From Orbilia blumenaviensis (Eukaryota > Ascomycota > Orbiliomycetes > Orbiliales > Orbiliaceae), in NCBI GenBank assembly GCA_036872755.1, contig JAVHNS010000011.1, positions 496,001 through 560,000 of the forward strand: 64,000 nt of DNA, given 5' to 3'. Made by a program: the position numbers and the translations under genes. The notes below the pieces were generated by a model. It did no database searches. It was given only the letters and a program-made list of their open reading frames with translations, and was not told the DNA's origin. Shown here piece by piece: positions 25,901 through 29,735 of the stretch (the first letter of the stretch is position 1; the number at the start of each line of letters is the position of its first letter).

Positions 25901-28380
25901 AAAACCCTTGGTTTCCCCGCCTGGAAAATGGTAAGAGGTCTCCAGTTTTATCGCGATGACTGCACGGAAGCTTTGTTCAAAGACGGCTATTTCTCCGTGT
26001 TTGTTGCAACCCCAAAGCTTCAAGGGAAACCAGGGGTCGGAAGCTGAGGGCTGGCTCTCATGCAGCGAAATAGTAATGATTCTCGAAAGATCCGCGAATT
26101 TCCTGCAAAGCGGGCTTCAATGTTCCGACATTAAGCTGAGTGGGTGCTTCGAAATTTCTGGAGGGAAAAGGCCTGTTCAACATGTTGTCTGCAGCCAAGA
26201 ACCGTTATATGGCATGCGATCCACACACAGCGGCAGAAAGCTGTTCTGGCGAGCCACTTAACTAAAATGGGCGGGCTGGTTTTGGGGGTTATGCTTTCTT
26301 CTTCCTCTAAATGTTTCCTCAACTGTTTCGAAGGTCGGAAATAATTGCATGGACTGGCGGGGGACCGGGAAACATGCATCTGTCACCGCAGAAAGAGGAG
26401 GTAAAGAACCAGCAGGATCCTTGAATATGTCGACAAAGGGTGGAGATCACAGCACATTTCAGACGTATACGCAAATGAGATATTCCGCCGGAACCAGGAA
26501 ATTCCTGTATAATAAATGTATTCCAACGAAGACGTGGGATGTGCGATACTCACTTCAAACCCACAACAACCGACGCTAGTGTGTCATTAATTATAAGACA
26601 GATTCCTAAATGTGCAGGCCATGTCGACGTCAAAAGACAAATAGATGCGTAACCGAAGTAGGCAAAAGCTCAGCTGTGTGGGTGAGAATGTACTGTATTT
26701 CTGCGTATGTACACGGATGAGGGTTGCAATCGGCGATACTATTGCGTTCAGGTTCGTTGCGATAGGTTTTGAGTCAGGGCAGACGCCTTATTTGAGGGGA
26801 ATCCACAAGAGGGCAAAACCAACCGTCGCCGCCAGATGTAGATGGCTTCTGGTCCCATCTACGTCAACATGCTATCCCTTGACGCTGCAGGGATAGTGCG
26901 GCCTGTCCCTAGGATCAAATAAATGGTACGTTTCCTTATTTTTTCGACCATCAGGCCATGATACGAAAAACCAGTGGTCCAGAAGGGTTCTACCGCTCTT
27001 ATACCTTACACCCTGAATAGTTCGAAACGAGGGGCTGAACCCAAAGACCTTGTTGTAACTGTGAAAGTTTCTGTAAGCTCGGCCTGCAGGGCGGCTAGGT
27101 CGAAGAGAACGGCTAATAAAAAAATTTTTTATTTTTTTCCTCCCTCCCACTTGATCTTGTACCGCGGATATCTCGCTCCTGCAAAAACAAGCAAGGGAAT
27201 TGACTATACAATTGAATAGCTGAGCTCAGCATAGTGGAGAGAATGGGGAGAGGAAGAAGCAAACCAGAGAAGGTATGGATCGACAAGACAGTCGACATCG
27301 AGGACGTCTGACAGGGTGTAAAATATTTAAGCACTATAAGCGATGGTGTTAATATTAATATAATATTGTTCTAACATGTATTAGTCTTACCACGGAATCC
27401 AAACCATGATTTAATGATTTAGGTTTCCGTTTTTTGTGATCGCTTATGCAATCGAAGACTCTTTTAGCAGAAAAAAAAAAGGTGCGACACATCCACACAG
27501 GGACTGTATTGTTTACCGGAAGCAACCTGTCTATCAACCTCGGCCAAATTTACTTATGCTGGCACAGGAACCCACCATGACATGATTCATGCTGAGATGT
27601 TCTACGGATTCAGCCCTTCAGCCTTAACTGTATCAGGTACTTGTCTGAAAAATCTTTTTCAACCGGCTGGATTTAAATACGTATAGAGATTATGGCTCAC
27701 CCAACCTGGCCCATGTTTGTACCCACCGCCTCTACCACCTACGTTCTACGTTATGCACATGGATAGACTCTTGTAGGGAAATTTGAACTCTAAGAATTCC
27801 GTAAAGATGTTGCTCTGTTTACTATGCATGTAGCCTCCCATTGATCCACTTAAAAAGTAAAAAAAAAAGAAAACCGAACCCCTTTACAGATCGGGGTACA
27901 CATGCGAACCATGCACTATGGTTGGTTCCTTTAGCAGGTTGAGATGAGATATGACTGCCCCTAAAAACTTCGGAGGCGACTTTCGAAGAGATTTACCCAA
28001 ACGACAAGGCAACAAGTAAACGTATGAAAAGCATGGGGAATATGGGTTGAAGAAAACTTGAAAACAACAGCAAAATATCAAAGCAAGGCCTAAAAGCAAG
28101 GAATAAAGGGGAAAAGGCAAAGAATAAAAGAGAAAAGAAAAAAAAGTCATAAACGCCCCTGGCCGTGTAAAAAGTCCCAAGAAAGAAATATACAAGATTT
28201 GTGAAATCAAATCATCACTAAAAAAAAACAAATCCCGAAGGAAACAAAGCTCAACCCGCCATTATGCATGATCTCCTGTCGAAATAAGATATTTAAAAAG
28301 AATAAATCAATGTAATAAATCAGCAAGGAACGTAGGATTATCAGCCGATGTTATCGCTCTAGTGGTCGAAACGTATGATA
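19923..28380. other. 8.4-kb gene-poor region
   Basis: No gene I can support. Short frames (for example 24723-24980 minus, 25237-25629 plus, 25706-26047 plus, 26872-27150 minus) have no recognisable domain and are not linked by convincing splice sites. Most could be remnants or chance. A short tandem duplication lies at 24314-24372. The right end (27.9-28.4 kb) probably includes the Myb gene's 3' UTR. Confidence 0.5.
24314..24372. repeat. Tandem duplication, about 29-30 bp x 2
   Basis: Unit 24314-24342 is repeated at 24343-24372 with one extra T before the C run. Each unit ends AAATTTCGACACGA. A recent local duplication with no coding context. Confidence 0.85.
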
Positions 28381-28791
28381 CTAGGGATGTGGGTGTTTCG
28401 GAGGTAAAGTTTGGTATGGGCTTTGAAGATTCTGGTATCTTTCTGGGTTCGATTCGAATGGTAAAGGTAGGTGGTGCTGCGCTGGTCTGTGTAGCGGCGG
28501 AATCAAAGGCTGCTGCTGCTGCTGTTGCTGTTGCTGCTGTTGCTGCTGCTGATGTGGCATAGGTTGTGACATCGGCTGAGACATCGGCTGCGGTATGGAT
28601 TGAGGCAGAGTCTGTGACATTGAGTGTGGCATAGATTGCGGCATGGGTTGGCCCATAGGCTGTTGCTCGCGGTTGTCTGTCTGGTTGTCTCTTTGATCGA
28701 AGGAAATGGAGCCTTCGTTATCCCCGACAGGAAATCCTTCGTGAGAAGGGGAGTAACTCCCCTCCTCGGACTTCCCGTCAGGGTCGGCTAG
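28381..28791 (-). other. Candidate stop-codon-readthrough extension of the Myb protein
   Basis: Immediately after the TGA at 28792-28794 the same frame stays open for 136 codons and stops with TAG at 28381. The sequence is protein-like: an acidic/Ser-rich part (KSEEGSYSPSHEGFPVGDNE), then repeated MPQS/MSQP units, a run of 14 Gln encoded by mixed CAG and CAA, and a Pro/His/Leu-rich end. The stop context is TGA-CTA-G, the established efficient readthrough context in fungi and animals. Readthrough would give a 430-aa protein from the ATG at 29735. An alternative is an 81-nt in-frame intron (28788-28868) with the weak donor GTTTGA, but it would delete conserved SANT-2 residues. Confidence 0.6.
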
Positions 28792-29735
28792 TCAAATGCT
28801 TATCTCTTTTGATTTCTCCCTGCAAGCAGCTGGGGAGAAACCGTTCCCGACCTTGGCAGAGATCAAACGCCATCTGTCGTTTTCGTACTCCTGCATGGCA
28901 TTCCTTAGTCGTTGAATCTACATGGGAAAGTTAGTTTAACTCCGGACGTAAGACAAAATTTTATTAATACGATTCATACCGTATCCTCTGTCCATTGCGT
29001 CGTTTTCGCCTTTAGCTTCGTGCAATATCGCACCTGTAGTGTCCCAGATGACCGACCAGGGAAAAATTCAGCAATTTGCTTCCATGTCAAGGCCCGATTC
29101 TCTTTAAGTTCTAACAACAGCGCATCGTCTTCTGGTGTGAACTTGAGTTTTGGACCCCTTGGGCGAGGCATAGGCATAGGCATTCCGGGGGCCCCAACTG
29201 CTGTTGTCATAGATGGTGCGCCATGTGACATGTGAGGTGATCCAGGAATAGGTCCTAGCATTGGAGGGCCGCCTTGACTCTGTCTCAAAGGCTCTATCGG
29301 TGATAAATGGCCTTGGTTTCCGAGCCCCGTTGGCGCAAACATTTGGGCTGACGGTTGTCCAGGAGTTTGCAGTGTTGGGGGGCCTCCCAAGAGACTACCA
29401 GGTCCACCCATTGGCATAGACGTTCTGCCAAGTAGGTCTTCAAAATCTGGTCTTTGCATTTTGAGCGGTGGCGGCTGGTCGGGATGATGATATCCATTAT
29501 GATTTGGCAGTTGGTGATGGTGGTGATGGTGACCGTGCTGTGCTTGTAGCTGATGATTCGCATGGTCTACATCATCTTCATCCATATCATGAAACGTTCG
29601 GCTACGGGGCTTCGTAGCCGACGAATGTGGTGTGTGATTTGGTGTCAAAGTGTAATGATCAGCGTGAGGCAGATGGCCGCCCATATTGCCATTGTTGGAA
29701 TGGGGTCCTCCCTGGTGAATAGGTTGATACTGCAT
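28792..29735 (-). CDS. Two-SANT Myb-like transcriptional regulator
   Basis: Exons 28980-29735 and 28792-28917 (293 aa). The intron has donor GTATGA and acceptor TGTAG. The N-terminal 190 residues are low complexity: Gln, His, Pro, Met and Gly, with a His run (HHHHHH). SANT/Myb repeat 1 spans about residues 194-248 (KFTPEDDALLLELKE, LTWKQIAEFFPGRSSGTLQVRY). Repeat 2 spans about 253-290 (NDRWRLISAKVGNGFSPAAC). This pairing is typical of fungal Myb regulators, nuclear DNA-binding proteins. The start is unsure: the frame is open and protein-like for 45 codons further upstream (to 29870) without an ATG, so an upstream exon may exist. The stop is TGA in a readthrough context and is followed by a long open frame. 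The promoter side faces about 10 kb without genes. Confidence 0.85.

Follow-up and report, generated by a model that had tools for sequence, protein, structure and literature searches.

Leaky UGA-CUA stops on fungal enzymes are already known, as is readthrough stimulated by stem-loops in animals and viruses. UGA CUA (G) is a published context of weak termination in fungi and mammals, and in the available parts of both reports it is leaky alone in the fungal readthrough enzymes, which are metabolic enzymes that carry peroxisomal signals (PMC4207609, PMC4973966). Sindbis virus has the weak stop UGA CUA as well (available text of PMC4973966), and MuLV gag-pol has an RNA structure, a pseudoknot, several nucleotides downstream of its stop (available text of PMC3835772). 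Among animal genes, hdc and dfr/vvl of Drosophila have a stable stem-loop shortly after the stop. Transferred to other genes, the stem-loop of hdc triggers readthrough (PMC3609751), and in dfr, which encodes a POU protein, the efficiency of readthrough is set by how stable the stem is and how far it lies from the stop (PMC13170385), as far as the accessible portions of these reports go. Moreover, predicted RNA structures lie behind the stop in 9-10% of readthrough candidates versus <1% of other transcripts in Drosophila and mosquito (accessible portion of PMC5100048). In the part available of their report, Chan et al. 2013 were not aware of a comparable stem-loop in any native gene of yeast, where they also found no coding conservation behind stops (PMC3609751). 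For filamentous ascomycetes, the -1 frameshift of PaYIP3 in Pezizomycotina combines programmed recoding with a downstream RNA structure, and according to the available text two species lack the PaYIP3 extension, Arthrobotrys oligospora being one of them (PMC3777964).

The locus considered here lies on the minus strand of a 64,000-nucleotide stretch of Orbilia blumenaviensis DNA, hereafter the window, and comprises a Myb gene, its in-frame TGA stop and an open extension behind it. The stop context is the one of the fungal readthrough enzymes and of Sindbis virus. Unlike in those enzymes, however, the stop belongs to the gene of a Myb-domain protein, the 136-residue tail ends in HPHP, and a strong predicted hairpin is added to the context. 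Spanning +12 to +73 (the stop counted as +1 to +3), this hairpin lies close behind the stop like the stem-loops of hdc and dfr, the latter at +9 to +59 (available text of PMC13170385), although both are animal genes and the dfr stop is UAG whereas that of the Myb gene is UGA. It also resembles MuLV in its position several nucleotides downstream, but it is predicted as a long simple hairpin rather than a pseudoknot, and readthrough in Sindbis and MuLV serves viral polymerase expression, unlike in the Myb gene. PaYIP3 differs in that its recoding is a frameshift. Programmed, hairpin-stimulated stop-codon readthrough is probably the best explanation of this Myb gene and its tail.

The Myb gene and its product

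Exon 1 (28980..29735, minus strand) opens with an ATG (MQYQPIH...) and covers the first Myb repeat and the start of the second; the orthologues P0001 (Orbilia brochopaga), P0002 (O. oligospora) and P0003 (Dactylella cylindrospora) share the MQYQP start. It is followed by a 62-nt phase 0 intron (28918..28979, minus strand), which reads GTATGA...CTAAC...TGTAG in the sequence and whose removal yields a protein that aligns gaplessly with P0001 and P0003 over the exon junction. The short-form coding part of exon 2 (28795..28917, minus strand) supplies the remainder of the second repeat and the C-terminal end ...AACREKSKEISI. The protein matches Myb_DNA-bind_6 in Pfam (E 1.3e-16) with two Myb stretches, as well as the c-Myb DNA-binding domain in PDB (E 9.4e-11), and its two repeats mark it as a predicted tandem Myb/SANT DNA-binding protein. 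Identity amounts to 88% with O. brochopaga, 93% with O. oligospora (over 89% of the length) and 85% with D. cylindrospora. When relatives were sought with a 64-aa piece, the viral collection gave 0 matches and the prokaryote collection 1 weak bacterial match. A Myb-like stretch of the bacterium Lichenicoccus roseus (L031:3001-3111) has 38% identity over query residues 11-49.

The stop codon, its context and its age

Exon 2 runs in frame into the TGA at 28792..28794 (minus strand), with the context TGA-CTA-G. The initial annotation had described a TGA followed by CTAG and then 136 open codons, and this description is confirmed, since positions 28791-28384 are sense codons throughout and a TAG follows at 28383-28381. 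Its statement that UGA-CUA is a documented leaky context likewise agrees with the available parts of the literature (PMC4207609, PMC4973966), and the stop has the context UGA CUA (G) of UGA-CUA readthrough genes. Within a 264-kb genome sample, TGACTA is found at 1/464 and TGACTAG at 0/464 of the stops that end ORFs of >= 100 codons, these ORFs not being verified genes.

The relatives' proteins indicate the age of this stop, on the basis of protein records, where the codon identity and the context of a stop are invisible. P0001 (296 aa) ends ...AACREKSKEISI and P0003 (297 aa) ends ...AACREKSKELNI, and in both of them the last residue is homologous to the last one before the window's TGA. In the Pezizomycetes proteins P0005 and P0008, the C-terminal end comes one residue later than in these two. 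More widely, 52/120 homologues among the matches listed have 10-19 residues between the beginning of the matched AACR/PAACR motif and the C-terminal end, 28/120 are longer there and the remaining 40/120 were not parsed by this pattern. Because the O. brochopaga and D. cylindrospora proteins end at the same place, the stop looks ancestral rather than like a fresh nonsense mutation. The suggestion of a recent nonsense mutation that shortened a longer constitutive protein draws on the coding-like character of the tail; it is contradicted by the ends of these orthologues, which make the stop probably old, and the 136 codons of the tail hold no further stop or frameshift, so that this origin is highly improbable. 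As homologues end there, the family normally seems to make the short form, to which the tail would be an addition behind the ancestral stop.

A predicted hairpin behind the stop

RNA folding places an 8-nt spacer, CUAGCCGA (28784..28791, minus strand), between the stop and a predicted hairpin of 62 nt (28722..28783, minus strand) with 27 bp, a 5-nt bulge and a 3-nt loop. The predicted stem consists of 16 G-C, 7 A-U and 4 G-U pairs with 0 mismatches. Over the 112 nt that follow the stop, the fold energy is -53.7 kcal/mol versus -34.6 +/- 3.6 in dinucleotide shuffles (z -5.37), and 0/200 shuffles are as stable. The coding content of the region was considered as well: hairpin stability is reached by 0/2000 sequences when the same 36 codons are recoded by genome codon usage (z -5.7) and by 0/2000 when their own synonymous codons are permuted (z -4.55). 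Furthermore, when both strands of the 264-kb sample are divided into 80-nt windows (26,232 in all), the hairpin gives the most stable one, and the lowest fold energy in the 464 post-stop regions of that sample is -44.4. The structure is kept in longer fold contexts, with a mean pair probability of 0.98 and a lowest of 0.64 in 418 nt. Stable, near the stop and beyond what composition and coding needs would give, the modelled structure resembles the hdc/dfr stem-loops. The initial annotation does not mention this hairpin, which is the strongest single clue at the locus.

The next most stable 80-nt windows of the genome sample, at -42.0 and -41.4 kcal/mol, lie at L012:4581-4680. They start ~80 nt past the TGA that ends an ORF of 361 codons, a stop followed by an in-frame run of only 18 codons.

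As to the origin of the hairpin, all four non-Watson-Crick pairs are G-U and none is A-C, which fits RNA-level selection on the stem, four events being few. An inverted duplication retained by chance may be another origin. A repeat element was considered and rejected, as a whole-genome search with the hairpin matched its own locus alone. An Rfam search at E <= 1 gave a single match, far under the gathering score and on the strand antisense to the poly-Q sequence. This match is to isrG (21.4 bits, gathering 100; window 28509-28591, plus strand) and is attributed to chance by composition.

A hairpin at this place also brings to mind other ways of recoding a UGA. Selenocysteine redefinition elements are hairpins directly behind UGA, and stop codons are edited in sexual tissue of some ascomycetes; selenocysteine insertion, or hairpin-aided A-to-I editing of UGA to UGG, is therefore conceivable, but barely so. 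A search for tRNA-Sec gave no match in this genome (0/1), which is weak evidence, as the search was loose and its control matched 14/14 genomes, over the cut-off in 5. With regard to editing, the hairpin does not include the stop, and in fungi the edited A is preferentially preceded by U.

Composition and coding signature of the tail

The in-frame extension, which is the predicted readthrough tail, comprises 136 codons (28384..28791, minus strand) with 21% Q and 18% P. It contains nine degenerate 12-nt repeats of QPMx-type units (28555..28662, minus strand; also found as a period-12 array), in the order QPMG, QPMP, QSMP, HSMS, QTLP, QSIP, QPMS, QPMS and QPMP. A 14-Gln run follows (28510..28551, minus strand; also found as a period-3 array), and the mixture of CAG and CAA reported for it earlier holds, with 11 CAG and 3 CAA. 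Measured against the column consensus, the nine repeats deviate 9/1/16 times at codon positions 1/2/3 and the Gln run adds 0/0/3, so that repeats and poly-Q together give 9/1/19 (chi-square p 0.0002). Column permutation of the repeats alone gives p 0.016 for position 3 being high and 0.026 for position 2 being low. As repeat units are not independent, these repeat-based p-values are approximate. Translation in the predicted frame nevertheless looks likely, because third positions vary and second positions are nearly frozen in the repeats.

The O. oligospora protein points the same way. Its residues indirectly imply 10 third-position versus 2 first-position differences in the predicted tail frame (one-sided binomial 0.019), second positions being invisible in this comparison and three poorly aligned residues beside the repeats holding 4/12 of the differences, both first-position ones included. 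In addition, the codon score of the tail exceeds that of all 68 post-stop regions. Its GC is 0.54 and falls to 0.35 at 28000-28380, and 2/68 post-stop regions reach the GC of the tail or more.

Openness is another matter. An in-frame open run of >= 136 codons is found behind 3/68 stops of long ORFs and behind 10/464 stops of ORFs of >= 100 codons in the genome sample, neither set consisting of verified genes, and by itself it is weak evidence, being mildly unusual. Other frames of the tail are likewise open over long stretches. On the minus strand at 28307-28717, for instance, a second, shifted frame is open for 136 codons over the repeats, a by-product of low stop content. By dicodon score, the repeats have two frames close to each other (0.38 vs 0.25), and over the last 43 tail codons no frame is preferred (0.01 vs -0.39 and -0.06), with one antisense frame higher there at 0.54. 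The synonymous codon bias of the genome is too weak to discriminate coding in the tail. Taken at the level of sequence, the extension appears to be under coding constraint save for its last 43 codons. Stop context, hairpin, tail codon score and codon-position signature are well beyond chance.

These observations bear on the possibility that the tail is simply 3'UTR, its frame held open through the CAG/CAA and 12-nt repeats, with the hairpin acting in mRNA stability or localisation and unrelated to termination. The open runs behind other stops, the further frames kept open by the repeats and the lack of frame preference over the last 43 codons all suit a 3'UTR, but neither the 9/1/19 signature nor the 10:2 ratio in the O. 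oligospora comparison would be accounted for by one. The drop in GC behind the tail and the position of the hairpin, 8 nt behind a published leaky context, also speak against a 3'UTR, which is accordingly quite unlikely.

Searches for relatives of the tail were largely negative. It has no family in Pfam, and a tail-only protein search gave 1 candidate with shared words and 0 at E <= 0.01. In a search with the long-form protein, the named Orbilia relatives, P0001-P0003, are without the tail in the predicted frame among the 120 matches listed of 671, and no other protein among the matches listed in these searches carries it. Gene-finding programs, however, would not annotate a reading frame that lies past a stop codon. 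A homology between the tail and the C-terminal ends of orthologues, those of Dothideomycetes among them, was rejected as an effect of composition, though adding the tail raised some bit scores; with 200 shuffles of the first 44 tail residues, p < 0.05 was obtained for 2/51 testable C-termini (152 proteins). The tail ends ...PPKHPHP and has no peroxisomal PTS1 tripeptide, and judging from this end it would not belong to the readthrough enzymes with a cryptic PTS1. The Q/P-rich tail of the long form is probably disordered.

The O. oligospora gene model and splicing around the stop

The main rival to readthrough is splicing around the stop. Through an alternative intron that starts in exon 2 or earlier, the TGA would be lost together with some of the second Myb repeat, and the resulting isoform would combine the tail with a damaged DNA-binding domain. 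A model of this kind exists for P0002, which is TWF970_005959 of O. oligospora and represents a cluster of 17 sequences: it breaks off at the same residue, skips the TGA and resumes in the tail region, where its frame is shifted by one relative to the predicted tail. This public gene model is without most of the second Myb repeat. Possibly it is a misannotation forced by the stop. In the window, a fair donor GGA|GTACGA at 28888 could pair with the in-frame acceptor 28757 for an intron of 132 nt, with CTGAC lying 20 nt before the acceptor, and one and the same extension is reached by splicing or readthrough in different fungi, according to the available text of PMC4973966.

However, this acceptor has GGGGAG as its end. 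Exon 2 contains four GT dinucleotides ahead of the TGA, the most downstream of them at 28841, so that any GT-AG intron beginning in this exon takes away at least GFSPAACREKSKEISI, residues of the second Myb repeat that the two relatives retain. For the in-frame intron at 28868-28788 that had been proposed as an alternative, the donor (GTTTGA) is poor, and nothing resembling a branch-point motif stands 6-50 nt ahead of the acceptor. Moreover, in the frame reached by the splice implied by P0002, third positions are the least variable ones (1/29 deviations), and the repeats show a codon-position pattern opposite to that expected from coding in P0002's shifted frame. Splicing also provides no role for the hairpin. 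On the whole, splicing is an unlikely source of the tail.

Proposed mechanism of readthrough

Programmed readthrough, the reading put forward in the initial annotation, is supported, though not proven, by the orthologues' ends at the stop, the 27-bp hairpin 8 nt behind it and the coding signature in the tail. The weak UGA context CUAG and the very stable predicted hairpin 8 nt downstream would together cause a minority of ribosomes to decode the UGA as an amino acid. With the UGA in the A site, the base of the hairpin (+12) would lie near the ribosomal mRNA entry, where it may slow the ribosome or hinder release. Near-cognate tRNAs could then compete with eRF1 and win in a fraction of the passages. 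The outcome would be a short DNA-binding form and a long form bearing the 136-residue Q/P-rich tail. As a guess, the disordered tail of the long form would add activation, partner-binding or condensate-forming ability.

More tentatively, and with somewhat less than even confidence, a hairpin-driven leaky stop may be at work in a native fungal gene and yield a second Myb form with a prion-like Q-rich tail, so that one mRNA would act as a dosage switch of the regulator that responds to the termination efficiency of the cell. In Aspergillus, GAPDH has a readthrough peroxisomal extension, unlike GAPDH of this fungus (L036, G000:C3:2708094-2711567), which ends in TAA and whose next in-frame stretch is without a PTS1 end, so that it gives no second example of readthrough in this genome.

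Implications for fungal translation

In the openly licensed literature, no readthrough of a fungal Myb gene was found, in line with the earlier claim that no readthrough extension had been described in a fungal Myb regulator, and the hairpin-aided route was found there for animals and viruses, not for fungi. If readthrough of this gene is true, fungi would use full structured recoding signals on regulators, beyond short leaky contexts on enzymes. Additionally, a fungal system would become available for dissecting the part of the hairpin in readthrough, with laboratory yeasts and Neurospora at hand, and it could be tested whether translation control, rather than splicing, adds Q-rich tails. Finally, it would mean that in fungi an old stop can come to be followed by a newly evolved region of 136 residues.
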